A stretch of DNA of 64,000 nt. It comes from a virus. The notes under the pieces are model-generated. The model ran no database searches. It saw only the letters and a list, made by a program, of their open reading frames with translations, and was not told where the DNA came from. The stretch lies in IMG/VR virus record IMGVR_UViG_3300022822_000017, positions 1 to 64,000 of that record. The stretch is one strand, 5' to 3'. Numbering within the stretch: position 1 is the stretch's first letter; each line of letters starts with the position of its first letter. Below, one piece after another: positions 17,310-58,427 of the stretch. The position numbers were made by a program, and so were the translations under genes.

Positions 17310-18251
17310 ATGGCAGACGTAAATCATACATTAACTACACTACAAGATGTTAACTACATCTTAAACAATGAGCCTACAGCCATTGGATTTACTCTCTCTG
17401 AGATAGACCCTTGTACAGCAGATAAGACCATTTTAGTAGGTACTATTGAGCCTGGGGTTAACTACAAGTTACCTATAAAAGTAGATGGCAGGTATAGTGT
17501 AAAGCTAGAACTGTTAGATACTGAATCTACTATTATAATAAACCATTATGTAAAGTTACAATTATCAACTATAGAGAGCATATTTTCTGTTACCTGTGAT
17601 TGTGGTTGTGGATGTGCAGATTGCACAGACCTAAACTTAGACATATACAAAGCACTACTAGCAACAAGAAATAAGATAGATACCTTAAAATATTTGTCTT
17701 CTCCTAAGTATGACTCTTTCTTTCAGAAAGTTCATAAGGGAATTAGTTGTTTAATAGAGCCACAAATTTATTGTGACATTACTACAGAATCTGTAACAGG
17801 TGTATCACAATACAATTCACAACTTACTAAAGATTTGATATCTTTAGATTATTTAATAATGTACTTTGCTGACCTTAGAGATGTTTCAGATTTAGATGAG
17901 ATTGCTTACATCAATGATAAGTATCAATCAGAGTCTATACTTTGTTGTATAAACTCTTCTGGAGTTAACATCAAAGAAATACAAGACATAGTAAATAGCA
18001 CAACAACTACTACTTTATGTCCTGTATGTCCTGAGTACACAACAACAGCTTGTCCAACAACAACAACCACTACCACTGAAGAAGTAACAACTACTGAAGA
18101 TCCAGTAACAACTACTACTACAGAGGACCCAGTTACAACAACAACTAGTACAAGTACAACAACAACAACTAGCACCACAACAAGCACAACTACAACTACC
18201 ACAGCAGCACCAGATGATTGTGAGTTAGTAGGAACTGCAGATGAGGTATAA
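17310..18251 (+). CDS. Cys-rich surface protein with Thr-rich stalk
   Basis: A 313-residue protein. The N-terminal 90 residues are beta-rich, followed by a dense cysteine motif CDCGCGCADC at about residues 95-104 and a helical middle. From about residue 230 a Thr-rich linker with TTTTT runs and TTEDPVTT repeats leads to the end, DDCELVGTADEV. A very similar end closes the next protein. The linker DNA uses mixed ACA/ACT codons, so selection is on the protein. It is likely a virion surface or head-fibre component; the exact site is unknown. Confidence 0.6.
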   Translation: MADVNHTLTTLQDVNYILNNEPTAIGFTLSEIDPCTADKTILVGTIEPGVNYKLPIKVDGRYSVKLELLDTESTIIINHYVKLQLSTIESIFSVTCDCGCGCADCTDLNLDIYKALLATRNKIDTLKYLSSPKYDSFFQKVHKGISCLIEPQIYCDITTESVTGVSQYNSQLTKDLISLDYLIMYFADLRDVSDLDEIAYINDKYQSESILCCINSSGVNIKEIQDIVNSTTTTTLCPVCPEYTTTACPTTTTTTTEEVTTTEDPVTTTTTEDPVTTTTSTSTTTTTSTTTSTTTTTTAAPDDCELVGTADEV

Positions 18252-18266
18252 AATAATTATAGAGAT

Positions 18267-19001
18267 ATGACAATAATATTGACATTAACAACAGCAGGTA
18301 TAGACACTACTGCTTTTAATCTTTATTCCAATGCAGACAGTTATACTGCTATACAAGATACTGCCACTAGAGCAGAATTGATGGCAGGTAAAACAGTTAC
18401 AATGCCAGCAGGTACTACAGCAATAAAATGTGTAGCTACAGGTGAGTGTTCTTCTGAATTGTTTGTATCAGTAATAAACAAGTTAGCTCCATCAGGTTCT
18501 ATCTCTGGAGGAGATTTATTAACATGTGTTAATACAAGTAACATCTTAACTGCAAATGTAGTTTACCAAGGTACACCTTCTTACTTGTGGTCTCCAGGAG
18601 GAGCAACTACACAAAACTTAACTGTCAATAGTCCAGGTACATATTCAGTACAGGTTACAGATAGTTACAATAACAAGACAAGTACTATCACTAAAATAGT
18701 TTCAGAAAATGTAATAGCACCTTCAGTCAACATAGTTGAGACAGGTTCATTACCAGGTTCTGTAACACTAAGTGCAAGTGGGTCTACTGCACAAGGTAGT
18801 AAGACTTATTTGTGGAGTACAGGAGAAACTTCTGCTAACATTATAGTAAATGGACCAGGAGTGTATGATGTTACAGTAACAGGAGGACTTAATGGATGTA
18901 CAGCTAATCAGAGCATACAAGTTCTTGATTGCTCAATGATAGGGACAATAGAAGATGTTACCCCAGAATGTGAAATGGAAGGTAATGCAGAAGAAGTATA
19001 A
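18267..19001 (+). CDS. Ig-like (SprB/PKD-type) surface protein
   Basis: A 244-residue protein. Residues 1-70 form a small domain (LTLTTAGIDTTAFNLYSNAD) shared with the next gene. Two Ig-like repeats follow, with YLWSPGGATTQNLTVNSPGT and YLWSTGETSANIIVNGPGVY. Their pattern (W-S-x-G-x-T-T, G-x-Y-x-V-x-V-T) matches SprB/PKD-type repeats of Bacteroidota adhesins. The C-terminus DCSMIGTIEDVTPECEMEGN holds two copies of the terminal tag. A role in binding surface glycans is plausible. Confidence 0.65.
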   Translation: MTIILTLTTAGIDTTAFNLYSNADSYTAIQDTATRAELMAGKTVTMPAGTTAIKCVATGECSSELFVSVINKLAPSGSISGGDLLTCVNTSNILTANVVYQGTPSYLWSPGGATTQNLTVNSPGTYSVQVTDSYNNKTSTITKIVSENVIAPSVNIVETGSLPGSVTLSASGSTAQGSKTYLWSTGETSANIIVNGPGVYDVTVTGGLNGCTANQSIQVLDCSMIGTIEDVTPECEMEGNAEEV

Positions 19002-19022
19002 ACAAGTTAACAATTATAAATT

Positions 19023-19931
19023 ATGATAACAAAAATAACATTAACAACAGCAGGGATTGATACTACATCATTTACTTTGCATTCAGATGCAGACAATTAT
19101 GCTGCAACTCTTGCAACTGTAAGTAGGTCTCAATTACTAGCAGGGTATGATGTTACAGTTCCTAGTGGCACAACAATAGTTAAAGTACAAGCTACAGGAG
19201 CTTGTTCTACTAGCATTTTGTTGTCAATAACAGCTACAACTGCAGCACCTGCAAATTGTCAAGTATGGACAGCTACAATGGCTGGACAAGTTCAATCAGG
19301 AGAAAGCATGACAGTTAATGCTGTTCTTTGTGATGGAAACAGTATTACTTATGTTTTATATGAAGGAGAGTCTGTAAACTTCTGTGGTACTATAACTAGT
19401 AGCACACTTAATGGAGGAACACTAACCTCTGGTTCAGCTTGTACTTCTGCTTACAGAAGTGTAGTACTTGCATCTAGTGGGAACAATGATTACAGTGCTT
19501 GTGCTTCATCAAGTTACACAAATTTCTATATGCCTAATGGTTCAAGACTATTAACTGCAACAAACATTTTTAGTGCTGCAAGTGGTGGAACAAGACCAGG
19601 TGCACTTTTCTTTAGAGAAGCATCTACAATAGGTTGGAGACAATGGACTGGAACTGCATTTGGAGGACAAGGAGAATGTGTTTCTACAGATTGTAAAACA
19701 TGGACATTGACTAGTAGTAATCATCCATCAGGAGAGTTTACTGAAATAAGATATACTCCTTGTGAAGGAGGTCCTCAGATAACAATAACTACTGGAGGTC
19801 AGACAAGTCAATCTTTCTGTGCTGATATAGACTTTATAGAGATAGTAGATATGCCAGGATGGGATGGAGTTAAAGATGACAACATGGTTGGTGGATACAG
19901 TAATTTAACAGCAACAAGTCAAAGCTGTTAA
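19023..19931 (+). CDS. Surface protein sharing the N-terminal domain of its neighbour
   Basis: A 302-residue protein. The first 70 residues (LTTAGIDTTSFTLHSDADNY, GTTIVKVQATGACS) are paralogous to the start of the 18267-19001 protein. The rest is a beta-rich region with many Gly, Ser, Thr and Cys residues and two similar halves around CQVWTATMAGQVQSGE and CKTWTLTSSNHPSGEF, so it may contain two related domains. No enzymatic motif is seen. It overlaps the next gene by one base (TAATG). Likely a virion surface or receptor-binding component. Confidence 0.6.
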   Translation: MITKITLTTAGIDTTSFTLHSDADNYAATLATVSRSQLLAGYDVTVPSGTTIVKVQATGACSTSILLSITATTAAPANCQVWTATMAGQVQSGESMTVNAVLCDGNSITYVLYEGESVNFCGTITSSTLNGGTLTSGSACTSAYRSVVLASSGNNDYSACASSSYTNFYMPNGSRLLTATNIFSAASGGTRPGALFFREASTIGWRQWTGTAFGGQGECVSTDCKTWTLTSSNHPSGEFTEIRYTPCEGGPQITITTGGQTSQSFCADIDFIEIVDMPGWDGVKDDNMVGGYSNLTATSQSC

Positions 19932-20374
19932 TGACTGATGAACTAATTAAATTAATAAAACAACTTGTAAAGGTCACCCATTCAAGGGTGATCTTTGTAG
20001 GGAGTTTTGTAGACACCATAAGAGGTATATCTGGAACACCAAGAGATATAGACATTATTGTAAGAAAAGAAGACTTAGCTGCCTTAGAAGTTCTAGGAGA
20101 AGTTATCCCTTTAAAATACAATCCTATGTTTAAAGGTAGAGAAAGATATTTCATAAAGACTGAAGTTATACCTATAGATGTATTTGTAGGAGATGGTCAT
20201 TTAAGTGGTGCCACATTTGAAGATGTACTAGTAGGAGAAACACTTGTAAAGGTGTACTCTAAAGAAAGTGAAATAGAATCAGCTGCAAAGCTTGCAGAAC
20301 ATGTTGAATCAATTCATTTAAGTACCTCAAGAAAGTATTTAAAAAGAGCAAACAAATTAAAAGAAAGACTATAG
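19931..20374 (+). CDS. Minimal nucleotidyltransferase-like protein
   Basis: A 147-residue protein with RVIFVGSFVDTIRGI and, 8 residues on, RDIDIIV. This is the GS...DxD core of the nucleotidyltransferase (pol beta-like) fold (G25, S26 and D41/D43 by eye), with a possible third acidic residue in VIPIDVFVG. These enzymes move NMP onto small molecules, proteins or RNA. It is coupled to the surface gene before it and to a glycosyltransferase after it, so modification of a virion component or sugar activation is more plausible than toxin-antitoxin use. Confidence 0.6.
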   Translation: MTDELIKLIKQLVKVTHSRVIFVGSFVDTIRGISGTPRDIDIIVRKEDLAALEVLGEVIPLKYNPMFKGRERYFIKTEVIPIDVFVGDGHLSGATFEDVLVGETLVKVYSKESEIESAAKLAEHVESIHLSTSRKYLKRANKLKERL

Positions 20375-21294
20375 TGAGATATATATGTGCACAACCTACT
20401 AACAATTACTATACTTGGCAAGTAGAGGTGTTGATACAGAACTTTAAAAAGCAAGGAGTTAATCCTAATCAGATTGATATCTTGTGTTCTACTACTACAG
20501 GGGAGATTCCTGAAGTATGGAAAAGGTTACAAGCACATTATAACACTGTAAGGTTCTTCTTTTACAAAGACACAAGAAAGGATAAAAGTTATATACCTTC
20601 TATCTATTTTAATTTAATGAAAAATCACATGATGGCTCACCCTGAATTAGAAAAAGAAAGGTTATTTTTACATGACAGTGATATAGTGTTTACTAGACCC
20701 CCAGAAGTTAGTTGGGTTGAAGGTAAAACCTGGTATATGAGTGATACAAATTCATACATAAACTATGACTATATACAGAAGAAAGGAGATGACATCTATA
20801 AGATGATGTGTCAGATTATAGGGATAGACCCACTGATACCAAAATTAATGAATAGTAACTCTGGTGGTGCACAGTATATAATCATAGGAGAGAACTGGAA
20901 GTTTTGGGAAAAGGTAGAAAGAAATAGCATTGAGTTGTATTCTTATTTTAAAAGAGTTGAAAGCTCTTATGTTAAGAAGCATCAGAATGACTACCCCATA
21001 CAGAAGTGGACTGCAGGAATGTGGTCATTGCTTTGGAATGCTTGGAGAAATGGTCATGAAACCAAAGTAGATACAAGACTAGATTTTGGGTGGAGCACTC
21101 AAGATATTGATGTAACTAAAAAGAATTGGATTTTACATAATGCAGGAGTGACTGACAATCAAAGTAGATTGTTTTTTAAAGGAGAGTACTTACACAAGTT
21201 GCCTTATAAAAGAATACTAGATATAGACAAAGACAAAGCTAGTTTCTATTATTGGACAGAAGTACAGGAAGCAGGTAAAAATACAATTTTATAA
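20374..21294 (+). CDS. Glycosyltransferase-like protein with DxD motif
   Basis: A 306-residue protein starting at a GTG that overlaps the previous stop. It has a Rossmann-like opening and FLHDSDIVF at about residues 97-105, the DxD metal/nucleotide-sugar site of GT-A enzymes. NSGGAQYIIIG follows, as found in several GT-A families that test acceptor binding. It is probably cytoplasmic and would transfer a sugar to an acceptor. Its neighbours are fibre and surface proteins, which suggests glycosylation of virion proteins. The donor and acceptor cannot be read from sequence. Confidence 0.65.
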   Translation: MRYICAQPTNNYYTWQVEVLIQNFKKQGVNPNQIDILCSTTTGEIPEVWKRLQAHYNTVRFFFYKDTRKDKSYIPSIYFNLMKNHMMAHPELEKERLFLHDSDIVFTRPPEVSWVEGKTWYMSDTNSYINYDYIQKKGDDIYKMMCQIIGIDPLIPKLMNSNSGGAQYIIIGENWKFWEKVERNSIELYSYFKRVESSYVKKHQNDYPIQKWTAGMWSLLWNAWRNGHETKVDTRLDFGWSTQDIDVTKKNWILHNAGVTDNQSRLFFKGEYLHKLPYKRILDIDKDKASFYYWTEVQEAGKNTIL

Positions 21295-21312
21295 AACATA
21301 AACAATAAACCT

Positions 21313-21618
21313 ATGGCTAGCATCATTAAACAAATAGATTACCTATACAGAGAGGTAAAATGCCTAAAAGCAAAACAGAGTGTACAAAGTGGTACAGGTG
21401 GTGGAGGAGCTGGAGGTAGTGGAGACAAACATCTTACATACATTCAACCTGCTGAACTAGAAGAGTGGGTAATAGAACATAACTTAGACAAATATCCATC
21501 TACAGTAATTGTAGATGATAATGAAGTGGAAGTAGAAGCTTCAATTCAACACATTACCAGAAATAAATTAATAATAACATTCACACCTGGCTTCTCTGGA
21601 AAAGCCTACTTAAACTAA
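21313..21618 (+). CDS. Short fibre/collar protein, 101 aa
   Basis: The protein has an N-terminal helix (IIKQIDYLYREVKCLKAK), a Gly-rich hinge (GGGGAGGSG) and a C-terminal beta domain EEWVIEHNLDKYPSTVIVDD...FSGKAYLN. That domain is a widespread phage fibre module with the pattern W-x-I-x-H-N-L-x-K-Y-P-S. It probably trimerises through the helix and attaches a fibre to the particle. It leads three successive fibre genes. Confidence 0.7.
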   Translation: MASIIKQIDYLYREVKCLKAKQSVQSGTGGGGAGGSGDKHLTYIQPAELEEWVIEHNLDKYPSTVIVDDNEVEVEASIQHITRNKLIITFTPGFSGKAYLN

Positions 21619-21624
21619 ACTACA

Positions 21625-22569
21625 ATGGCAGAAAGAAAATTTCTATCAGATATTAATTTATCTGGAAATCAATTGCTGAGAGCTGTGTTTCACAATGCAT
21701 CATCAGCACCAACATCACCAAAGGAAGGTCAAGCCTACTTTAACACAGCAAGTAATACACTTTTAATCTATGCAGGAGGTTCTTGGGTAGATGCATTAGG
21801 TGCAAACTCAGCAACACAATTAGGAGATGGTACTAGAAATGGTACTACCTATGGTATTGACTCTGATGGGTCTCAAGATGACATTATCTTACAAAGTGCA
21901 ACTACCTCTTTAGCAGGTCTATTAAGTGCTGCTAAGTTCAATGAGATTGTAGCCAACAATGCTAAAGTGTCTAATGTAGATCACCCATTAGTTGAAGCAC
22001 CAGTACCTTCTGATGCAGTGTTTACAGATACTGAAACATTAACTACTTTAGGTTTGGCTGGAAACAACCTTACTTATGTAGATGAAAATGGAGATACAAC
22101 TACTTTAGATTTAACTCTTTATTTAGATGATACTAATGCAGCAAGAATTGCAAGTGGAACTTTAAATGGTAGTACAGGTATTGCAACATTCACAAGAGAT
22201 GATGCTAGTAGTTTTGAGATTAACATGTCTGCATTTTTAGATGCAATTACTCTAAACAATACTTTGACAAGTGATTCTACAACAGAAGGATTAACTGCAG
22301 CTCAAGGTAAGGTATTAAAAACATTAGCAGATTCAAAAGCTAAAAGATACTCAGGTACTTTTGGTAATGGTTCTTTACTTGTTTTATCAGTACCTGCTTC
22401 AACACACCAAGTAAATTCTAATGGACAATTTTCAGTTTTTACTGCACTTGTAAGTACAGGGGAACAAGTAGAATGTGAAGTTGTAATAAACTACACTAAT
22501 GGAAACATTACAATTGAAACTAATGAAGCTGTTGGAAATGCAGATTTATTAGTGACAGTAATTGGATAG
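21625..22569 (+). CDS. Tail fibre protein
   Basis: A 314-residue fibre protein. The N-terminal region has ISLxG-like LSGNQLLRAVFHNASSAPTS, then GQAYFNTASNTLLIYAGGSW, a module found in many phage fibres. A repetitive beta region and a late TEGLTAAQGKVLKTL helix typical of fibre proteins follow, ending in a beta domain that could be the tip. It shares the MAxRKF start with the next gene, which suggests a common docking site. Confidence 0.7.
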   Translation: MAERKFLSDINLSGNQLLRAVFHNASSAPTSPKEGQAYFNTASNTLLIYAGGSWVDALGANSATQLGDGTRNGTTYGIDSDGSQDDIILQSATTSLAGLLSAAKFNEIVANNAKVSNVDHPLVEAPVPSDAVFTDTETLTTLGLAGNNLTYVDENGDTTTLDLTLYLDDTNAARIASGTLNGSTGIATFTRDDASSFEINMSAFLDAITLNNTLTSDSTTEGLTAAQGKVLKTLADSKAKRYSGTFGNGSLLVLSVPASTHQVNSNGQFSVFTALVSTGEQVECEVVINYTNGNITIETNEAVGNADLLVTVIG

Positions 22570-22599
22570 TTATCTGAGTAACATTTAAAAAACAATACA

Positions 22600-23049
22600 A
22601 TGGCAAAAAGAAAATTTATAGTTAATATAGAAGCTACCTCTTTCATAAAGAAGAATGGTACTTCCTCTCAGATTTTAAGGGCAGATGGAAGTGTGGATGG
22701 TAACATTTATACTTCTCTAAAAAGAGTGGGTAGTAACTTACCTACTACTGTTTCTAAGGTTTCAGGTAATCACACTATAGATTTTTCAGCTAACAATAAC
22801 TTCCTGATAAATGCATCAGGAAGTTATAGTATTGTTGCTTCTATTTCAGCAGCAAATGTTGGTCAATCTGGCATGATTACTATAGTAAATTCTGCAGGAG
22901 TGACTCCAGGAAATTTACCTAGTAACCTTCTTACATCAAATGGACATGAACCAGCTTGGGTTACAGCAAGTGGTAAAACTTCCATATTATCTTATTATGT
23001 GATAAATGCAACACAGGCAATAGTAAATTACATTGGTGACTTTTCTTAA
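22600..23049 (+). CDS. Short fibre protein, 149 aa
   Basis: It starts MAKRKFIVNIEATSFIKKNG with SSQILRADGSV, the recurring x-x-x-L-x-A-D-G-S motif of phage fibres. A beta-rich tail follows, ending in IVNYIGDFS. The N-terminus resembles that of the 21625-22569 protein, so both may attach to the same base. It directly precedes the first giant Thr/Ser-repeat gene. Confidence 0.65.
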   Translation: MAKRKFIVNIEATSFIKKNGTSSQILRADGSVDGNIYTSLKRVGSNLPTTVSKVSGNHTIDFSANNNFLINASGSYSIVASISAANVGQSGMITIVNSAGVTPGNLPSNLLTSNGHEPAWVTASGKTSILSYYVINATQAIVNYIGDFS

Positions 23050-23060
23050 TATAAAGATAT

Positions 23061-24764
23061 ATGAATATAGGGTTCAGCAAAATCATAGAGTGGAACACAT
23101 CTAAATCCACTACTACAAGTTTTAATACTTCTAGGAATACTAGTACTAGCTACATTACAACTAATGTTACAGCTACTACTTGGAGTACATCTAAGTCTAC
23201 TACTACTGATTATGTTACCTCACATTCAACTCAGACTAATGTTCCTACATCTAGGTCTACAACTACAACTTATAACACATCTAAGTCAACAACAACTACC
23301 TACATTACAACTAGGTCTACAACAACAAGCTATAATACTAGTCACAGTACAACTACTACCTTTGATACAACTATTTCAACAGTTGTAACATGGATTACTA
23401 GTCACAGTACTAATACAGTGTACAACACTACTAAAAACACTAGTACTACTTATAACACATCAAGAGCTACTAATACAACTTTTAGTACTTCTAAATCTAC
23501 TACCACTACTTTCAGTACTACTGTGAGTACTAGCACTAGTTATCTTACTTCTAGAGCTACTACCACATCATGGAACACAAGTAAAAGTACTACCACTGTT
23601 TATAATACAAGCAGAAATACTACTACTACTTATGAGACTTCTAAGGCTACCACAACAACATGGTCTACAAATAGGTCTACATCAGTATCACAGTCTACAT
23701 CAAGGTCTACCACAACCACATATAACACTAGTAAAAGCACTACAACTACTTACAATACCAGTAGAGCTACTACTACAACATACAGTACCAGTAAATCAAC
23801 TGTTACAACATACAATACAAATCATAGCACCACTACTACTTTTAACACAAGTATTGCTACTACAACAACTTGGAATACACTTAGGTCTACAAGCACTACT
23901 TACAATACAAGTAAGATAACTAACAGTAGCTTTAACACTAGTAGAACTACTACAACTAACTTTACAACTAGTAAGAGTACAACTACCACTTGGATTACTA
24001 GTAGGGCTACTACAACAACATATAACACTAGCCATAGTACTACCACTACATGGAATACTTCTTACAATACAGTTACTACTTATAATAGTAGCACAAGTTT
24101 TACTACTACTTGGAGTACAAATAGAAGTACAGCAAAATCTCATAGTACAAGTAAAAGTACTACAACTACCTGGAGTACATCAAAATCCACTACTACTACT
24201 TGGAATACTAGCAAGAGTACTACTACTACTTATAATACTTCAACAAGTACTATAACAAACTACAATACTTCTCACAGTACTACAACTACTTTTAACACAA
24301 GTATAAGTACAGTGACTACATACAACACATCTAGGTCTACAACCTGGAATACAAATGTATCTACAAATACTTCTTTTAGTACTACTAGGACAACAGGTAC
24401 AACTTTTAATACAAGTAGAAGTACAAATACAACTTGGATAACATCTAAAAGTACAACTACTACTTATTACACTAGTCACAGTACTACTAAGAGTACTAAT
24501 AGTATGAGAAATACTAGTAGACTTACTAATGTAAGTACTACTACAAGCTATAATACCCTTGTAGATACTACAACTACTTATATTACATACTATAATGTAA
24601 TAACTAGTTGGAACACAACAAGGTCAACAACTACTACTTACAATACAACTACTGGTAGAAGTACTAGTTGGGTTACATCAAGAAGTACAACAACAACTTA
24701 TGACACTTCTGGAGGAGGAGGAGGAAATTATGACCCATCACCACCATTCCCATCTCCATCATAA
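23061..24764 (+). CDS. Giant Thr/Ser decapeptide-repeat protein 1
   Basis: A 567-residue protein made, after about 10 leader residues, of roughly 53 copies of a 10-residue unit: aromatic (Y/W/F), then N/S-T-S-(K/R/H)-S-T-T-T-T. It ends in GGGGGNYDPSPPFPSPS. The DNA repeat is 30 bases long, but Thr codons vary, so the protein pattern is what is kept. An aromatic and a basic residue recur every 10 positions, which would align in ladders if the chain forms a solenoid or fibre. The density of Thr/Ser makes it an obvious O-glycosylation substrate. No known family is recognised. Confidence 0.75.
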   Translation: MNIGFSKIIEWNTSKSTTTSFNTSRNTSTSYITTNVTATTWSTSKSTTTDYVTSHSTQTNVPTSRSTTTTYNTSKSTTTTYITTRSTTTSYNTSHSTTTTFDTTISTVVTWITSHSTNTVYNTTKNTSTTYNTSRATNTTFSTSKSTTTTFSTTVSTSTSYLTSRATTTSWNTSKSTTTVYNTSRNTTTTYETSKATTTTWSTNRSTSVSQSTSRSTTTTYNTSKSTTTTYNTSRATTTTYSTSKSTVTTYNTNHSTTTTFNTSIATTTTWNTLRSTSTTYNTSKITNSSFNTSRTTTTNFTTSKSTTTTWITSRATTTTYNTSHSTTTTWNTSYNTVTTYNSSTSFTTTWSTNRSTAKSHSTSKSTTTTWSTSKSTTTTWNTSKSTTTTYNTSTSTITNYNTSHSTTTTFNTSISTVTTYNTSRSTTWNTNVSTNTSFSTTRTTGTTFNTSRSTNTTWITSKSTTTTYYTSHSTTKSTNSMRNTSRLTNVSTTTSYNTLVDTTTTYITYYNVITSWNTTRSTTTTYNTTTGRSTSWVTSRSTTTTYDTSGGGGGNYDPSPPFPSPS

Positions 24765-24785
24765 AATTAAATTAAAAGAAACAAC

Positions 24786-25394
24786 ATGGCAATAGATCAG
24801 ACATATTATAAAATGGGAGATGTTACTACTACTAATCATCTTACTTCTCCTAATACAAAAAATATTAATGCTTGGTACAAAGAGTGGAAACCTCTTTTAG
24901 ATGCAAGTGTATTTGATGCTTACATAGTAGGAAATGTGGCTGAAAAAATATTTGGTAAATCTATTATACCTACAGTAGATTTTGATGTAGCTTTGCTAGG
25001 AGACATAGCAGAGGATTATGAAAGCTTAAAAGTGTTAATGGATGAAGCTGTAAGAATAGGTTTTGACAACAAATTTTTAGTTGATATATTTCACAATGAT
25101 GCTTTGTTAGACATACAGAATTTTAAGCCTATTGTTCAGATAAGACAGTTTAATCATTTTAAAAGGTCTAATGCTGATGGCTCAAACAAAAAAGAATACA
25201 AAGTAGAAGGTAAAGACCTTGAAGAAATTTATGGTGGGATGGTTAAAGCAACCTATACTAATACTGATATTATTCCTGTTAGTTGTTATAAAGCAAGAGC
25301 AAGGTTTAAAGATGGAGACTACATTGGAATACAAATAAATGTAAAAGATGCATTTGATGCAGATGACAACCTTTTGGGTAAAGAATTAATTTAA
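24786..25394 (+). CDS. Second nucleotidyltransferase-like protein
   Basis: A 202-residue protein with AYIVGNVAEKIFGKS, then TVDFDVALLG at about residues 65-74, and later FLVDIFHND. This is the G-N...D-x-D arrangement of the nucleotidyltransferase fold (D-F-D, then another acidic strand). It is longer than the 19931-20374 protein and not closely similar in sequence. It sits exactly between the two giant Thr/Ser-repeat genes, so it probably acts on them or on a sugar used for them. That link is inference from position. Confidence 0.55.
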   Translation: MAIDQTYYKMGDVTTTNHLTSPNTKNINAWYKEWKPLLDASVFDAYIVGNVAEKIFGKSIIPTVDFDVALLGDIAEDYESLKVLMDEAVRIGFDNKFLVDIFHNDALLDIQNFKPIVQIRQFNHFKRSNADGSNKKEYKVEGKDLEEIYGGMVKATYTNTDIIPVSCYKARARFKDGDYIGIQINVKDAFDADDNLLGKELI

Positions 25395-25411
25395 GATAAA
25401 AAGAAAAGAAT

Positions 25412-27046
25412 ATGCCTAATACTTCCCATTCTACTACAACTTCTTGGAACACTTCAAGAACTACTTATGTTGTTACTAACACAAGTCATACTACAACTAC
25501 AAGTTGGAGTACAAGTAAAAGTACAGGTTATTCTAGGTCTACATCTAAAATTACTAATGAAAGTTATAGTACTTCAAAAAGCACTGTTACAACATGGTCT
25601 ACAACTGTTTCAACAGCTGTACCAGTAAACACACAAAAGACAACTACATATTATACTTCTAAAAGTACTATTACAAATTATTCAACTAGTTTAACAACTA
25701 CCACAACTTATGGTACATCAAGAAGTACCACTACAACTTTTGCAACTTCAAAGAGTACAGTAACTGTAAGGTCTACTTCAAGAACTACTACTTTTGCTAC
25801 AACTAGAAGTACAAGTACTACCTGGTCAACCTCTAGAAGTACTACAACAACTTACATAACTACTAGGGCTACTACTACTACTTATGCCACAAGTAAGGCT
25901 ACAACAACTACTTTTGCTACTAGCCAGAGTACAACAACAACTTTTAATACCAATAAGTCAACTACAACTACTTATACCACTAATTATAATGTTATAACTA
26001 GTTTTAATACATCAAGGTCTACTACTGTAACTAATTCTACAACAAAGAATACCTCTACTTATCATAGTACTAACAGAAGTACCACAACTACTTATAATAC
26101 TGCTAGGTCAACTACAACTAGTTGGGCAACAAGTAAATCCACTACTACTACATTCCTTACATCTAGTAGCTGGACAACTACTTTTAGTACTATAACAAAT
26201 TTTACAACTACTTATAATACTTCTCATAATACTAACACAACTGTTAGTACCTCAAGAAGTACTAATACAACCTGGTCTACTACTAGAAGCACAGTTACCA
26301 CATACAATACTAATCACAGTACAGTGACAAGTTATAACACTAATCATAGTACTACAACAACATTTGCTACAAGTCATAGCACTACTACCACTTATGCTAC
26401 TAACCATGCAACTACAACTACATGGACAACTACATACAATAGAATAACTAGTTTTGATACAAGCAAGTCAACTACTACAACATATAATACTTCTCACACT
26501 ACCTCTACTACTTTTAGTACTAATCACAGTACTACTACTACATGGAGCACTAGTCAAAGTACTATAACTAATTACAGTACAAGTCATGCTACAAATACAT
26601 CTTGGTTAACTGACAGAAGCACAACCACAACTTGGAACACTACTTCTTCTATTACCACTACTTATAACACTAGTCATACAACTGTAACTACTTATAATAC
26701 CAATCATAGTACAGTTACTAACTATTCTACAAGTAGTTCAAGAAACACTACATGGTCTACACAGAGAAGTACTACAACTACTTACTCAACAAGCCATATT
26801 ACATTAACAAACTATAATACTAACCATAGCACAACTACCACATACAGTACATCAAAAAGTACTACAACCACATACAACACATTAAAAGCAACAACTACTA
26901 GTTATAACACAACTTACAATACCACTACTACATTTAGTACAAGTACATCTAAGTTGACAAACTATTCTACTAGTCATAGCACAACAACAACCTGGTCTAC
27001 CAGTAGATCTACAACAACTACTTTTACAACAACATGGTATGTTTAA
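25412..27046 (+). CDS. Giant Thr/Ser decapeptide-repeat protein 2
   Basis: A 544-residue protein that is almost wholly the same 10-residue repeat as 23061-24764, again about 53 units. It starts within the repeat (MPNTSHSTTTSWNTSRTT) and ends TTTFTTTWYV, with no clear cap. Units carry NHSTTTTF, SRSTTTTY and similar variants. The two genes are paralogues, but the units are shuffled and diverged, so they are not a recent copy. Likely a fibre-like surface component; the lack of an N-terminal docking domain means it needs a partner. Confidence 0.75.
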   Translation: MPNTSHSTTTSWNTSRTTYVVTNTSHTTTTSWSTSKSTGYSRSTSKITNESYSTSKSTVTTWSTTVSTAVPVNTQKTTTYYTSKSTITNYSTSLTTTTTYGTSRSTTTTFATSKSTVTVRSTSRTTTFATTRSTSTTWSTSRSTTTTYITTRATTTTYATSKATTTTFATSQSTTTTFNTNKSTTTTYTTNYNVITSFNTSRSTTVTNSTTKNTSTYHSTNRSTTTTYNTARSTTTSWATSKSTTTTFLTSSSWTTTFSTITNFTTTYNTSHNTNTTVSTSRSTNTTWSTTRSTVTTYNTNHSTVTSYNTNHSTTTTFATSHSTTTTYATNHATTTTWTTTYNRITSFDTSKSTTTTYNTSHTTSTTFSTNHSTTTTWSTSQSTITNYSTSHATNTSWLTDRSTTTTWNTTSSITTTYNTSHTTVTTYNTNHSTVTNYSTSSSRNTTWSTQRSTTTTYSTSHITLTNYNTNHSTTTTYSTSKSTTTTYNTLKATTTSYNTTYNTTTTFSTSTSKLTNYSTSHSTTTTWSTSRSTTTTFTTTWYV

Positions 27047-27070
27047 ATTATTTATTATCTTAGCACAGAA

Positions 27071-27643
27071 ATGGATACAATAAAAGATAGAATAACTTGG
27101 TTACAAGGAGAAGATAAAAAGTACAGTAAGCTTTATTCTTCTGGATATCCTCATGGGGGACCTATGGGATTAGTAACAGTCTTTGATATTCCCAAAGAAA
27201 AAAAGTGTATAGATTTAGGATGTGGATTAGGAGAATTGAGTAAACACTTTACAGACTACACAGGAGTGGATGTCTCTAGCTGGGTTATAGGCTCAAACAA
27301 ACAAAGAAAAATTAATGGTACTTACTACCATGCTTCTTTAGATAATCTAACTTGTATAAACAAGAACCAATATGATGTAGGTATCTGTTCAGATGTAATG
27401 GAGCATATCCCTGAAGAAAAAGTAGGAGTTATTTTAAAAAGTATATCTTTGTTAAAAGTAGGAACTTTTTATTTTGACATAGCTCTTCTGCCAAGTTCTA
27501 ATGTAGATGAAGAAGGAAAAAATTTACACCTTACTCTTTGGAAACAAGAAAGATGGGTAGAAGAACTAAAAAAGTATTTTAAATTAAAAGAAGGTAAAAT
27601 TTGTGAAGGAAGTCTTAGAGTAAGTTGTACCTTGAAACAATAA
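27071..27643 (+). CDS. Class I SAM-dependent methyltransferase
   Basis: A 190-residue protein with KCIDLGCGLGELSKHF (motif I, SAM binding) at about residues 47-62, VDVSSWVIG (acidic motif II region) and VGICSDVMEHIP (motif IV region). The fold is the common Rossmann methyltransferase, most like those in polysaccharide and nodulation-type clusters rather than DNA methylases, as no target-recognition domain is present. The neighbouring genes suggest a sugar or protein acceptor. A TATCTTAG sequence, one base off the Bacteroidota -7 box, lies 7 bases ahead of the ATG. Confidence 0.7.
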   Translation: MDTIKDRITWLQGEDKKYSKLYSSGYPHGGPMGLVTVFDIPKEKKCIDLGCGLGELSKHFTDYTGVDVSSWVIGSNKQRKINGTYYHASLDNLTCINKNQYDVGICSDVMEHIPEEKVGVILKSISLLKVGTFYFDIALLPSSNVDEEGKNLHLTLWKQERWVEELKKYFKLKEGKICEGSLRVSCTLKQ

Positions 27644-27667
27644 TTATTAATAATTAAAAACAGAAGT

Positions 27668-28069
27668 ATGAATGCACAAACAATTATTTTAATTATCCTA
27701 GGATTAGGATTTTTTATTACAGCACTACTAGTGCTAAAGAAAAGAAAACCACAAAGTATTAATGTTACAACAACCACTAAAGCAGTAGCTACAACTACAG
27801 TAAAGCCTAGTGATGTTGATCCAAGTGATGTTAAACCAAGTGATCCAATTGCTACTACAACTACAACTACAAAGGCACCACAACCTAGTCCTAGCATTGA
27901 TGCTACTAGATACAAGCCTAACCCTAGACCAAAGAAGAATCCAGCTCCAAAAAAGAAACCAAATCCAAGACCTAAAAAAGAAGCAGTTAAAGTTGCACCT
28001 AAGAAGGTTGTTAGAAAGGTTAAAGAAGAGCCTAAAGCAAAACCAAGAAAACCTAAAGCTAAAAAATAA
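27668..28069 (+). CDS. Membrane-anchored Lys/Pro-rich protein, 133 aa
   Basis: A single N-terminal membrane segment (IILIILGLGFFITALLVL, about residues 6-23) is followed by KKRK, a TTTT linker, and a long basic Pro/Lys tail (PRPKKNPAPKKKPNPRPKKE). The arrangement suggests an inner-membrane protein with the tail inside or in the periplasm. It could bind DNA or polyanionic cell-wall polymers. It may belong to the lysis group a kilobase downstream. No family is recognised. Confidence 0.6.
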   Translation: MNAQTIILIILGLGFFITALLVLKKRKPQSINVTTTTKAVATTTVKPSDVDPSDVKPSDPIATTTTTTKAPQPSPSIDATRYKPNPRPKKNPAPKKKPNPRPKKEAVKVAPKKVVRKVKEEPKAKPRKPKAKK

Positions 28070-28077
28070 GTTACAAT

Positions 28078-28986
28078 ATGGAAATGTTTGACCAAAAAGT
28101 TCTTAAAGAGAGGATTGGAGAACTTAAGAAAAGTAATAACCTAAAGACATTAGAACCTGTAGAAAGGTATTTACTTGAAAAGTTAAAGAAGACTGGTGTG
28201 AAAGCCAACTATGATGTATTGTGTGAGGAGATGCCTTACTTTGATACAATAGGTTACACAGAGTATGCAACCAACTTTATTATGTCCCCACTTAATCTAA
28301 AGATGAAAGAAGACATGATGAGGGATGCAGAGCAGGATACAGATGAATATGAAATATTAGATTATGCATCTCATTTTGCTGATAACATTAAGAATAATTT
28401 AGCTAATAAATACAAAGACAGATTATCTGACTTTGATGGATACAAAGAGGTTACAGCTTTAGTAGTTTTACCAGGGTCTAATAAACTAAAGTCAGCTGTT
28501 TGTATCAACAAGTTAAAAGAGATAAAGAGATTGTATGGTGATGATGTTTATTTTAAACCTCACCCACTTACAACACATGCTTTCATTGGTGAGTTGAAAG
28601 ACTTATTTGGTGAGAACAGTATATTACCTAGAGAGATTGATTTGTATTATTTCCTAGCAAAAGTAGATAAGGTCTACACAACCCACATAAGTGAAAGTGC
28701 AGTTTATGCCATAGCTTTGGGTAAGAAGATTGAGCCTATTGATGTTTACAATGAAATAAGACAAGGATCTTTTTACAGTATAAATGTAGGTCTTTTTGAA
28801 AATCAATATGAAGGCAAAGAGTGGATTAACAAAGTCTTCTCAAGTCCAAAGTCAGGAGTGATAAATCCTAATCTTGATAAAGATTGGAAAAAGAAAGTAG
28901 ATTTATATTTAGAATACATTTTAGAAAAAAGGGAAATGTATAAAGATTGGTACATAGACAGTAGAGTACCAAAAGAAAAAAAGTAA
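28078..28986 (+). CDS. GT-B-like (KPHP-motif) polysaccharide transferase
   Basis: A 302-residue protein with VYFKPHPLTTHAFIGELKDL at about residues 157-176, followed by VYTTHISESAVYAIALGKKI. The KPHP motif and the TxxSESAxxxxALGK segment are those of GT-B-type capsule and CDP-glycerol/teichoic acid transferases, where they bind the nucleotide donor. The N-terminal acceptor half is helical and unlike a known family. With the DxD enzyme at 20374 it gives this block two glycosyl-transfer folds. Confidence 0.6.
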   Translation: MEMFDQKVLKERIGELKKSNNLKTLEPVERYLLEKLKKTGVKANYDVLCEEMPYFDTIGYTEYATNFIMSPLNLKMKEDMMRDAEQDTDEYEILDYASHFADNIKNNLANKYKDRLSDFDGYKEVTALVVLPGSNKLKSAVCINKLKEIKRLYGDDVYFKPHPLTTHAFIGELKDLFGENSILPREIDLYYFLAKVDKVYTTHISESAVYAIALGKKIEPIDVYNEIRQGSFYSINVGLFENQYEGKEWINKVFSSPKSGVINPNLDKDWKKKVDLYLEYILEKREMYKDWYIDSRVPKEKK

Positions 28987-55540: not shown

Positions 55541-56965
55541 ATGATAACATTAAAAGCACGTAGAACTCTGAATGCTATTGAGACAGGGACTTTAGATAGT
55601 TCAGGTTTAGAAGCTAGATTAGCAGACCCTGGACATTTAGCAGAATTTTACAGTCTGTTAGCAACTAAAAGCCAAACTAGAAGAATGGCTTCAAGTGAAT
55701 TAACAATGGAAGCAATTGCTTTTAGTGAAAAAGCTCACAAAGCTATTTTTCAATCTTCTACAAATTACAATACAACAGCTGCTCAAGCAGTTGCAGATAG
55801 TCCTGTAGCTATGGCTAAAATGGCTGTGTCATTAGATGCTTTAACAGTAGCTATTGAGAACCCAGTATCATGGGCATTATTTACAAACAGTCCTTACTAT
55901 GAAGTAAACATTAAAACTATTGTAGCATTATTTGCTGGATTAGATGCAAGTCTGTATGAGTCTATTCAAGAAATGATAGAAGACCCTGCAGCAACTTATG
56001 AAATTGCAGCAAATGATAATGCAATGACTGCACTTGTAAATAGTACAATAGCTATGACTAAGGCAGTAGACACAATTACAGCAATGGATGACATTGTAGC
56101 TGATACCTCAGCATTTACAATTTTAGCTAATCATGGTCCTAGTTTAAACTTAGTTGCACAAAGTGCAATAGCTATGTCTGCAACTACTGATGAAGCTAGA
56201 GCAATTGTAGTAGGTATTCCTTCTGGACTTAGAATCTTTGCTTCTTACCCAGTTCTTTGGAAATCTCTAATGGAGACTTCAGAAACTTTAGCCACTAATA
56301 TGTATAGTTTAATTATTGTACTTACAGAAATAGACCCTACTGTCTTTACAACAGTAGAACAAATATTTGGTAATGAAATATCAATGGACAAAGTTGCAAG
56401 TAACAGTCCTACTATGGTAGCAATAATGCATGAAGAAGGTACATTAAATGCAATGATTGCTAGTGCTCAATTAGATGTTGTATTAGCTAATCCTGTGTCA
56501 ATGGGATTATTTGCAGCAGACACAACAATTATGAGTGACCTTATTGGGTCATCAGCATTCACTGCTTTACTAGGAAGTCCTTTAGCTAAAGAAGCAATTT
56601 TTGCTTCTCCTTCTTTGATAACAACAATGACAGAAGCAGGTTCAGATTCTCTTGCAACACTAGAAGGGTTGTCTGTTAACTTAACAGGACCCACACCAGA
56701 CACTAAGATTGGACAATTTCAAAGCTTAGGTCTTACAGGTAACATTATTTTGTTAACTGCTAGGATAGGTTCTATTACTGCTGCTAAAGTTGACAACTAC
56801 TTTAAAGGAGATGGTCAATCAACTGCAACATTTGCTTGTCCAGGTACTCATGCAGCAAGTGAGTATCCAATAATCAATTTACCATTTACTAATATCCAAT
56901 GGGATATTAACTCTATTGCAGCAACTGCAGCTGCTAAGATTACAGTAACTTATGTTTCATTTTAA
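55541..56965 (+). CDS. Tail fibre protein of S-x-x-A-M repeats, paralogue 1
   Basis: A 474-residue protein. After a conserved opening (GHLAEFYSLLATKSQTRRMA) it consists of loosely repeated helical units such as SPVAMAKMAVSLDAL and STIAMTKAVDTITAM, a pattern common in long phage fibres. The C-terminus from about residue 385 is a beta-rich tip. It is paralogous to the next gene over its whole length. CGT arginine codons are used in the first codons, rare here. Confidence 0.7.
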   Translation: MITLKARRTLNAIETGTLDSSGLEARLADPGHLAEFYSLLATKSQTRRMASSELTMEAIAFSEKAHKAIFQSSTNYNTTAAQAVADSPVAMAKMAVSLDALTVAIENPVSWALFTNSPYYEVNIKTIVALFAGLDASLYESIQEMIEDPAATYEIAANDNAMTALVNSTIAMTKAVDTITAMDDIVADTSAFTILANHGPSLNLVAQSAIAMSATTDEARAIVVGIPSGLRIFASYPVLWKSLMETSETLATNMYSLIIVLTEIDPTVFTTVEQIFGNEISMDKVASNSPTMVAIMHEEGTLNAMIASAQLDVVLANPVSMGLFAADTTIMSDLIGSSAFTALLGSPLAKEAIFASPSLITTMTEAGSDSLATLEGLSVNLTGPTPDTKIGQFQSLGLTGNIILLTARIGSITAAKVDNYFKGDGQSTATFACPGTHAASEYPIINLPFTNIQWDINSIAATAAAKITVTYVSF

Positions 56966-56984
56966 CAACTAATAAGATAACATT

Positions 56985-58427
56985 ATGCCAACACTAAGAG
57001 CACTAAAAACATTAAATGAAGTAGAGTCAGGAGCATTGGATGGTGCAGGTCTTGAACTAAGACTAGTAAATCCAGGGCACTTGGCTGAGTTTTATAGTTT
57101 GTTATCTACTAGAAGTCAAACAAGAAGAGTAGCATCTAACACATTAACTATGACAGCAATGTCAGTAAGTGAGTTAGCACACAGAGCTATTTTAGCATCT
57201 GCAAGACATGATAATACTTCTGCTGCAACTGCAGTATCAGGTAGTTTAGTAGCTATGAATAAAATATCTATATCATTAGATGCTTTAAACATAGCTATTG
57301 AAAACAGAGTTTCATGGGGGTTATTTATAACTAGTGCACATTATGAAAACAACATTAAGAGTATTGTATGTTTGTTTGCAGGATTAGATCCTGATGACTA
57401 TTTTAGTTTAACAGACATGATTGAAGACCCATCTGCAACATATCAAATAGCTTTAAGTGACAAAGCAATGGAAGCTTTAGTAAACAGTACAACAGCAATG
57501 GCTATAGTTGTAGAAACAGAGACAGCTATGCAAGACATAGTTGCCAAAGAATCTGCATTTACTATTCTTGCAAATAATGTTCATAGTGTTAATGAACTAG
57601 CAGGAAGTACAATAGGTATAACTGCTGTTACAGATGCAGCAAGAGCAATAATTGTTAGCATACCAGCAGCATTAAAAGACTTTGCATCACATAATTCTGT
57701 ATGGGAAGATTGGATGTCAACATCAGAAACTTTGTCTGATACTATCTATGATATTCTACTTATTTTAACAGAAGTGGATGGAGCTGAATTTGAAACTACA
57801 GAGCAAATATTTGCTAATCCTGTTCCAATGAATAAAATTGCAAGTAGTACTTCTGCTATGATAGCAATATTAAATGAAGCAACTACTTTAGGTATTTTTA
57901 TTAATAGTCCTGAAATAAGTATTGCACTTACTAACCCAATATCAATGGGATTACTTGCAGGAGATACTTCAGTAATGGTTGGACTTGTTGAGAATGAAGC
58001 AACATTTCCTATCTTATTAAACAGTACTTTATCTAAGTCAGTTATGTTTGAGTCTAATGATATAGTAAATGCAATAGCAGGTAATGCCTTTGCAATAGCT
58101 ACTTTAGAAGCTATAGCAGTGGAAGTATTAGCTCCTACTTTACCAGATGGAGTAGTTGGAACTTATCAATCATTTGGATTCCCTGGTAAGATGCTTATGT
58201 TAGCAGCAAGAATGAACTCTATTGTAGCAACTACAACAGATGTTGCATTTAGAGGAGACCCAATGTTTGGCTCTGAAGCTGGAACAACTAATGCTTATGC
58301 AGGTAAGTCAGCATCTACTGATTATAGAAACCACATTGCAGCTTATACTGACATGGAATGGGACCCTAAAGTAATCACAGCTACTGCAGCAGCACAAGTA
58401 TATGTAAGATATGTAGATTTTAACTAA
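56985..58427 (+). CDS. Tail fibre protein of S-x-x-A-M repeats, paralogue 2
   Basis: A 480-residue paralogue of the preceding gene, with the opening GHLAEFYSLLSTRSQTRRVA and the same unit order. The N-terminal 200 residues are clearly more alike than the C-terminal tips, where the sequence past about residue 390 differs. That is what is expected if the tips bind different targets. Together the pair gives the phage two fibre types, or two parts of one. Confidence 0.7.
   Translation: MPTLRALKTLNEVESGALDGAGLELRLVNPGHLAEFYSLLSTRSQTRRVASNTLTMTAMSVSELAHRAILASARHDNTSAATAVSGSLVAMNKISISLDALNIAIENRVSWGLFITSAHYENNIKSIVCLFAGLDPDDYFSLTDMIEDPSATYQIALSDKAMEALVNSTTAMAIVVETETAMQDIVAKESAFTILANNVHSVNELAGSTIGITAVTDAARAIIVSIPAALKDFASHNSVWEDWMSTSETLSDTIYDILLILTEVDGAEFETTEQIFANPVPMNKIASSTSAMIAILNEATTLGIFINSPEISIALTNPISMGLLAGDTSVMVGLVENEATFPILLNSTLSKSVMFESNDIVNAIAGNAFAIATLEAIAVEVLAPTLPDGVVGTYQSFGFPGKMLMLAARMNSIVATTTDVAFRGDPMFGSEAGTTNAYAGKSASTDYRNHIAAYTDMEWDPKVITATAAAQVYVRYVDFN

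Follow-up and report, generated by a model that had tools for sequence, protein, structure and literature searches.

The stretch of DNA analysed here, hereafter the window, comprises 64,000 nucleotides (nt) of the IMG/VR virus record IMGVR_UViG_3300022822_000017, which has 67,838 bases in total, and it encodes, between positions 17310 and 28986, a set of Thr/Ser-rich fibre-type proteins together with putative glycosyltransferases (GTs; Table 1). As is well supported by co-occurrence of their genes across phages, these phage-encoded transferases would modify the Thr/Ser-rich proteins, and they probably do so as two separable protein-glycosylation cassettes, namely, a GT8-like enzyme dedicated to poly-Thr tracts and a GT-B enzyme with a KPHP motif dedicated to decapeptide repeats. 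The original prediction, made from the letters of the window, had placed the named open reading frames (ORFs) on the plus strand at positions that we recovered unchanged, and had proposed that all enzymes of this region modify its repeat fibres. Strong co-occurrence of transferases with Thr-rich proteins upholds the core of that proposal; what did not stand is the single pathway, since the DxD enzyme pairs elsewhere, the nucleotidyltransferase-like proteins hardly recur and the parallels for the methyltransferase are weak.

Decapeptide repeats and the KPHP enzyme

The two repeat proteins, A and B, are built from the same ten-residue unit, aromatic-N-T-S-[KRH]-S-T-T-T-T. Their description as Thr/Ser-repeat proteins was accurate: Thr and Ser make up 60% of A and 62% of B, and both keep a strict period of 10, with a lag-10 identity of 0.48-0.49 versus 0.14-0.21 at odd lags. 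Searches of A and B against Pfam and PHROG found no family, a blastn query of phage records with repeat A (low-complexity filter on) was negative, and close-relative scans with single sequences (the KPHP enzyme, 24786-25394 and repeat A) recovered nothing beyond two records belonging to the phage of the window. When IMG/VR was scanned with a degenerate nucleotide pattern matching this unit, at least 119 stretches came up, 116 of which encode a long repeat protein of up to 3392 residues (stretch numbers from this and from the Thr-tract pattern scan are lower bounds). In 3028 units from other phages Thr is found in 99% at position 2, 98% at position 6 and 99% at position 8, while the remaining Thr/Ser positions are variable; for position 2, the window's own 105 units were left out because the search pattern required Thr there. 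Spacings between aromatic residues are even in 6196 of 6506 cases, which would fit beta strands with one aromatic/Thr face. A and B belong to a widespread family of repeat proteins that has not been named.

Unbiased clustering of the neighbours of the repeat genes gave as its top family a protein of ~301 residues, present in 84 of 112 loci (85 proteins), always downstream on the same strand with a median gap of 59 nt, and homologous to the KPHP enzyme of the window. Counted from the side of the repeats, and taking those repeat-selected loci in which downstream DNA extends for 1 kb or more, a KPHP homologue is present in 77 of 81; the other four stretches break off in the next gene or shortly past it, or inside another repeat ORF. 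Counted from the side of the enzyme, a Thr/Ser-rich ORF lies upstream, typically 56-62 nt away, in 75 of the 76 KPHP-selected loci with more than 400 nt upstream, a count that includes the window's phage twice and four loci of the repeat set. The pairing is tight in both directions. These numbers should be read with the sampling in mind: the IMG/VR profile scans contributed the best 80 of 150, of 159 and, for the KPHP enzyme, of 422 relatives, so that counts lean to near relatives, and many loci are fragments, some of them near-identical. KPHP matches in loci selected by the DxD enzyme, by the major capsid (head) protein or by Thr tracts came from the window's phage only. In the window, the KPHP gene lies about 1 kb 3' of B, with the methyltransferase gene and that of a small protein with a hydrophobic start in between.

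The same association is found in cultured phages, of which four kinds (27 records) have KPHP relatives. In Vibrio phage KVP40 the Thr-rich KVP40.0254 is two genes upstream of the KPHP relative, and in the Caulobacter phages Lullwater and Cr30 it is preceded directly by gp41 and gp254, respectively. The motif [FYW]xT is enriched in KVP40.0254 (12/19, p 0.002) and in Lullwater gp41 (20/34, p 5e-5), and falls short of significance in Cr30 gp254 (7/26, p 0.25). A profile search of genome contigs with the KPHP enzyme returned one contig, from a Flavobacteriales metagenome-assembled genome, with a repeat gene directly upstream.

The KPHP transferase that had been proposed at 28078-28986 was confirmed as a conserved family. 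Within the motif K160-P161-H162-P163, residues K160, H162 and P163 are invariant in 40 of 40 alignment rows, D46, which might correspond to the catalytic Asp of Kdo transferases, is conserved in 39 of 40, and the model predicted from this 40-sequence alignment has a GT-B fold (predicted local distance difference test, pLDDT, 93.4). Its closest solved structure is KpsC (6mgb; Z 10.5, root-mean-square deviation (rmsd) 3.9, 224 aligned residues), followed by KrkA (9.7) and WbbB (9.6); the top 14 matches are all transferases of 3-deoxy-D-manno-octulosonic acid (Kdo), with Z from 8.6 to 10.5, and the first polysialyltransferase scores 8.4. Kdo is a sugar of lipopolysaccharide (LPS) and capsules. 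On the predicted fold, therefore, a Kdo transferase is what the mode of action of this enzyme would best resemble.

Some phages also carry a gene for Kdo-8-phosphate synthase, a representative of which scores 395.5 bits against a curated cut-off of 242. By tblastn it is found in 10 repeat-selected and two KPHP-selected loci, in nine cases 14-22 nt from the KPHP gene, and in none of the loci selected by the DxD enzyme, the capsid protein or Thr tracts. Several of these loci are near-identical, so they represent few independent events. A GT29-like protein occurs in 10 repeat-selected loci. The Kdo-transferase-like fold, together with these Kdo-8-phosphate synthase and GT29-like neighbours, makes cytidine monophosphate-activated Kdo (CMP-Kdo) our best guess for the donor, a guess that could as easily prove wrong as right. 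In one locus (L188, 5373-6809), the synthase directly 3' of the KPHP gene has ~200 extra C-terminal residues of unknown kind.

The DxD enzyme and poly-Thr tracts

The DxD glycosyltransferase was likewise borne out. Its motif (D101/D103) is invariant in 34 of 34 alignment rows of the family, and its predicted model is a GT8-like GT-A fold (pLDDT 94.1), closest to glycogenin (Z 15.1, rmsd 3.4, 223 aligned residues) and LgtC (14.6). It shares with the GT8 enzymes glycogenin, LgtC and GlyE (Z 13.7-15.1) the GT-A fold with DxD, and differs from them in its partner, a poly-Thr phage protein. Of these, glycogenin and GlyE use protein or glycoprotein as acceptor. The original prediction had paired this enzyme with repeat protein A, and this pairing was not recovered: among the at least 119 repeat-selected loci, the enzyme is present in the window's phage only. 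We rejected it as a partner of the decapeptide repeats; outside the window's phage it is found with poly-Thr tract proteins.

Leaving out the window's phage, 72 GT-selected loci extend far enough upstream to be judged, and in 65 of them (44 of 49 after dereplication) a dense Thr/Ser tract ends no more than 3 kb upstream; the background, taken from other ORFs of the dereplicated loci, is 9 of 582. In the window, the candidate acceptor is the protein encoded at 17310-18251, whose C-terminal (T/S)n tract (0.87 Thr+Ser over 30 residues) differs in type from the decapeptide repeats, and whose homologues in GT-bearing crAss-like relatives likewise have tracts. Co-occurrence across relatives had been put forward as a check on the original prediction, and it came out in its favour for both enzymes: the KPHP enzyme stands without a Thr/Ser-rich protein in only 1 of 76 loci, and the DxD enzyme without a tract protein in only 7 of 72.

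Among close relatives, the enzyme and the tract go together. In a head-protein tree with 18 distinct sequences, the four GT-bearing phages all have tracts and the other 14 have neither GT nor tract; this label requires at least two changes on the tree, and the window's phage and L092, which differ in this state, have head proteins 92.7% identical. Whole records of the 14 GT-less relatives contain no match to phrog_4417 (the family of the DxD enzyme), no KPHP profile match and no run of six Thr codons, in searches that were positive on control records (Thr runs and KPHP on the window's record, phrog_4417 on others). Relatives selected by the head protein, with at least 2.5 kb downstream and the window's phage excluded, have a GT or tract in 0 of 51, only 17 of which reach at least 8 kb.

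For cultured phages, 13 of 74 GT-bearing records were fetched, and there is a clear Thr run near the GT in 10 and a weaker Thr-rich end in two (521B and LP65). The Thr runs form the ends of the major tail proteins of phiFL2A, R3.3, PLE3 and bIL285 and of the major capsid protein of 4995_1; in R3.3 the protein directly before the GT also ends in a Thr run, and in bIL285 the tail protein lies ~1.3 kb downstream of the GT. When homologous major tail proteins are compared, all three GT-bearing phages shown have the Thr tail, and the seven without a GT nearby have no Thr/Ser run longer than 3 (these seven GT-less records come from 62 with a phiFL2A-type tail protein, GT absence being judged within the 3.5 kb fetched). 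In LP65, orf51, two genes upstream of the GT and with a Thr-rich end, is annotated as found by 2-D/mass spectrometry.

Three of these phages show peculiarities in their reading frames. In phiFL2A (L414, 5001-5892) the GT frame is broken into two pieces, and the tail protein still has its Thr tail. The major tail proteins of Staphylococcus phage SA2 (L415, 4117-4930) and Arcanobacterium phage TPWB06 (L418, 4164-4926) end in a Thr run, and in both an overlapping ORF in another frame extends the Thr-rich tract, as if a frameshift yielded a tailed version.

Proposed mechanism and alternatives

The ORFs, the repeat grammar, the recurrence of the gene pairs in many phages and the predicted folds are what the analysis shows. 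Based on these results we infer a course of glycosylation that extends to catalysis, acceptor residues, donor sugar, the presence of the products (A and B included) in the virion, and their benefit to the phage, for which the original prediction had suggested that a glycan coat might bind mucus or conceal the particle. The DxD enzyme would move a sugar from a nucleotide sugar onto Thr/Ser of poly-Thr tracts, here those of 17310-18251. The KPHP enzyme would act on Thr of A and B, probably on or close to the nearly invariant Thr that stands two positions after each aromatic, and the sugar transferred would most likely be Kdo or a related keto acid activated with CMP. Decoration would take place in the host cytoplasm ahead of assembly, and the decorated proteins would give a particle with sugar-bearing tails, fibre or brush. 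More doubtful, though worth stating, is the most specific version, in which Kdo or a related acidic keto sugar would be put directly on Thr of [FYW]-x-T repeats to give beta fibres with an acidic sugar coat, whose length can reach thousands of residues, by a widespread and unnamed system for which some phages encode Kdo synthesis themselves.

Several observations weigh against this model. The KPHP enzyme lacks a Thr/Ser neighbour in locus L476 and in Stenotrophomonas phage DLP_6, and the DxD enzyme lacks a tract in the seven loci mentioned above and in Enterococcus phage 9183, the remaining record of the 13. In profile searches the KPHP enzyme has no match to a Pfam transferase family, NCBIfam or a relevant structure of the PDB, for which reason we do not class it as a member of the Kdo transferases, and its fold match, at Z about 10, is distant; the DxD enzyme has no sequence match to Pfam, NCBIfam or the PDB either. 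Kdo-8-phosphate synthase is present in few lineages and was not seen in the window's phage. Furthermore, of 31 tract loci flanked by 2.5 kb on either side, only 7 contain this GT, which makes a tract a poor predictor of the GT, while the GT is a good predictor of a tract. In four of the 24 GT-less tract loci the GT is elsewhere in the record. Around the GT-less tract genes with sufficient flanks there are 84 neighbours (191 in a wider list); 69 of them were scanned, and a few other glycosyltransferases turned up (PF11397 in three, PF00535 in two and PF13704 in one), though not in most of these loci.

An alternative is that the transferases change host surface glycans (LPS/O-antigen) against superinfection, the Thr-rich proteins being bare fibres that simply lie nearby. 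Fibre-region glycosyltransferases of pelagimyophages have been interpreted as host-surface modifiers (PMC7029224), and the predicted fold of the KPHP enzyme matches Kdo transferases that act on surface polysaccharides. Yet enzymes with such a role need no Thr-rich neighbour, and the pairing holds in 75 of 76 loci counted from the enzyme and in 77 of 81 counted from the repeats; poly-Thr tails on major tail or capsid proteins would likewise be superfluous, so that we regard this possibility as unlikely. Slightly less likely still are repeats that serve as bare structural beta fibres or spacers beside enzymes that modify another part of the virion. The even aromatic spacing agrees with this, as does the near-invariant Thr at positions 2, 6 and 8, like alternate residues of a beta strand, and many Thr tracts have no GT nearby. 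TxT-like arrays occur in ice-binding beta solenoids. Bare fibres, however, would not account for a KPHP gene that follows the repeats almost without exception, nor for Lullwater gp41 and Cr30 gp254, which still adjoin a KPHP gene though they are short, unevenly spaced or less Thr-rich. A non-sugar modification, with the nucleotidyltransferase-like proteins putting AMP or UMP on Thr/Tyr and the glycosyltransferases serving other targets, is very improbable: 24786-25394 does lie between the repeat genes and 19931-20374 beside the DxD enzyme, with a resemblance at motif level only, but the former has no homologue in any other repeat locus and no family support, and the constant partner of the repeats is the KPHP enzyme.

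The proposed two-cassette glycosylation can be compared with known systems. General O-glycosylation of Bacteroides targets Thr/Ser, in a phylum that crAss-like phages infect. The original prediction held that the repeats lack the Asp of its acceptor motif; D-[ST]-[AILVMT] has no match in B and two in A, so the claim held for B and was nearly right overall. The KPHP model comes closest in structure to the beta-Kdo transferases KpsC and WbbB and to the retaining KrkA (Z 8.3-10.5), and in some phages the KPHP gene adjoins one for Kdo-8-phosphate synthase; identity is only 11-16%, and the genetic partner of the KPHP enzyme is a Thr-rich protein and not a polysaccharide locus. Mycobacteriophages (Che8, Corndog, Myrna) are reported to encode enzymes that glycosylate their capsid and tail tube proteins, the glycans being at C-termini (Freeman et al., 2023, as cited in PMC12619734 and PMC12363180). 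Such C-termini are also the site of the poly-Thr tails in our GT-A phages; the hosts are different, the proposed acceptors here are recognisable Thr tracts or decapeptide repeats, and the second cassette has a Kdo-transferase-like GT-B enzyme. Here, as expected of phage virion glycosylation, a transferase is genetically tied to a structural protein. In a survey of low-complexity regions, poly-threonine tracts receive only a passing mention (PMC6821194), and our search of the open literature, with most subscription papers outside it, found no paper that connects either enzyme with Thr tracts or repeats of this kind. Phage virion glycosylation is already known, and the linkage proposed here is possibly new.

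The enzyme-and-target pairs found across many unrelated phages suggest dedicated machinery for sugar-coated fibres and tails that is unnamed in databases. PHROGs lists both phrog_4417 and phrog_26179 (the KPHP family) as of unknown function; each is now assigned a likely substrate, and many relatives may therefore be read as virion-modifying enzymes. Particle glycans should be sought on [FYW]-x-T fibres and wherever a major tail or capsid protein ends in poly-Thr. Cultured phages are open to direct test: the KPHP pair can be studied in KVP40, Lullwater and Cr30, and the GT-A pair in the Enterococcus phages phiFL and Lactobacillus phage LP65. Sugars on phage particles bear on adsorption, immune recognition and phage therapy.

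Source phage and neighbouring genes

The source phage is of crAss-like type, judging from the families of its terminase, portal and major head proteins and from a crAss muzzle protein (PF25731, 34306-39957) and ring protein (PF24228, 33330-34295).

Table 1. Genes of the region under study and their proposed roles.
Feature	Coordinates	Strand	Remarks
Tract protein, C-terminal mucin-like (Thr/Ser)n	17310..18251	+	phrog_15330, 2.3e-9; proposed acceptor of DxD enzyme
Structural module protein	18267..19001	+	N-terminal domain common to tract proteins of other GT loci; weak PKD
Second copy of the 18267-19001 N-terminal module	19023..19931	+	tblastn matches in 13 loci besides the window's two
Small protein, nucleotidyltransferase-like by motif only	19931..20374	+	no family match
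GT-A enzyme, phrog_4417, DxD invariant, GT8-like predicted fold	20374..21294	+	putative partner of poly-Thr tract proteins
Tail-fibre-type protein	21625..22569	+	phrog_22284, 3.7e-24; PF22337, 5.8e-6, slightly below Pfam cut-off
Adaptor-like protein	22600..23049	+	homologues often just 5' of decapeptide-repeat genes
Decapeptide-repeat protein A	23061..24764	+	proposed acceptor of KPHP enzyme
Small protein between repeat genes, nucleotidyltransferase-like by motif only	24786..25394	+	no credible match
Decapeptide-repeat protein B	25412..27046	+	same repeat unit as A
S-adenosylmethionine (SAM) methyltransferase	27071..27643	+	PF13489, 1.2e-8
KPHP GT-B enzyme, phrog_26179, predicted fold nearest CMP-Kdo transferases	28078..28986	+	putative partner of decapeptide repeats

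The fibre context and the SAM methyltransferase of the original prediction both agree with the family matches in Table 1. The module of 18267-19001 gives tblastn matches over ~65 residues in 15 loci besides the window's two. Among repeat loci that extend 600 nt or more upstream, 62 of 105 have a homologue of the adaptor-like protein (E<1e-4), which in 47 lies no more than 700 nt away.

For the methyltransferase, which may methylate or cap the glycan sugar, tblastn gave nine distant matches among the repeat and KPHP loci, and methyltransferases of other families often adjoin repeat genes. One methyltransferase-like family of 349 residues (L236, 1883-2929, and relatives) overlaps or abuts the repeat genes in 21 repeat loci.

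The two nucleotidyltransferase folds that had been proposed, at 19931-20374 and 24786-25394, could not be substantiated: neither protein has a Pfam or NCBIfam match or a credible PHROG match, a PDB sequence search with the latter gave nothing credible, and a G[SN]...DxD-type motif is the only pointer to this activity. For the former we found one partial homologue (L029, 36% over 85 residues), and for the latter none in the loci beyond the window's phage. Given that their recurrence is nearly nil, we do not tie these proteins to the system.

The protein encoded between the methyltransferase and KPHP genes (27668-28069; 133 residues) is hydrophobic over an N-terminal segment, contains Thr runs and ends in a Lys/Pro-rich stretch; it has no homologue in the fetched loci apart from the window's phage. 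Further downstream, 55541-56965 and 56985-58427 encode adjacent, clearly similar fibre-type proteins, both of which match phrog_7809.

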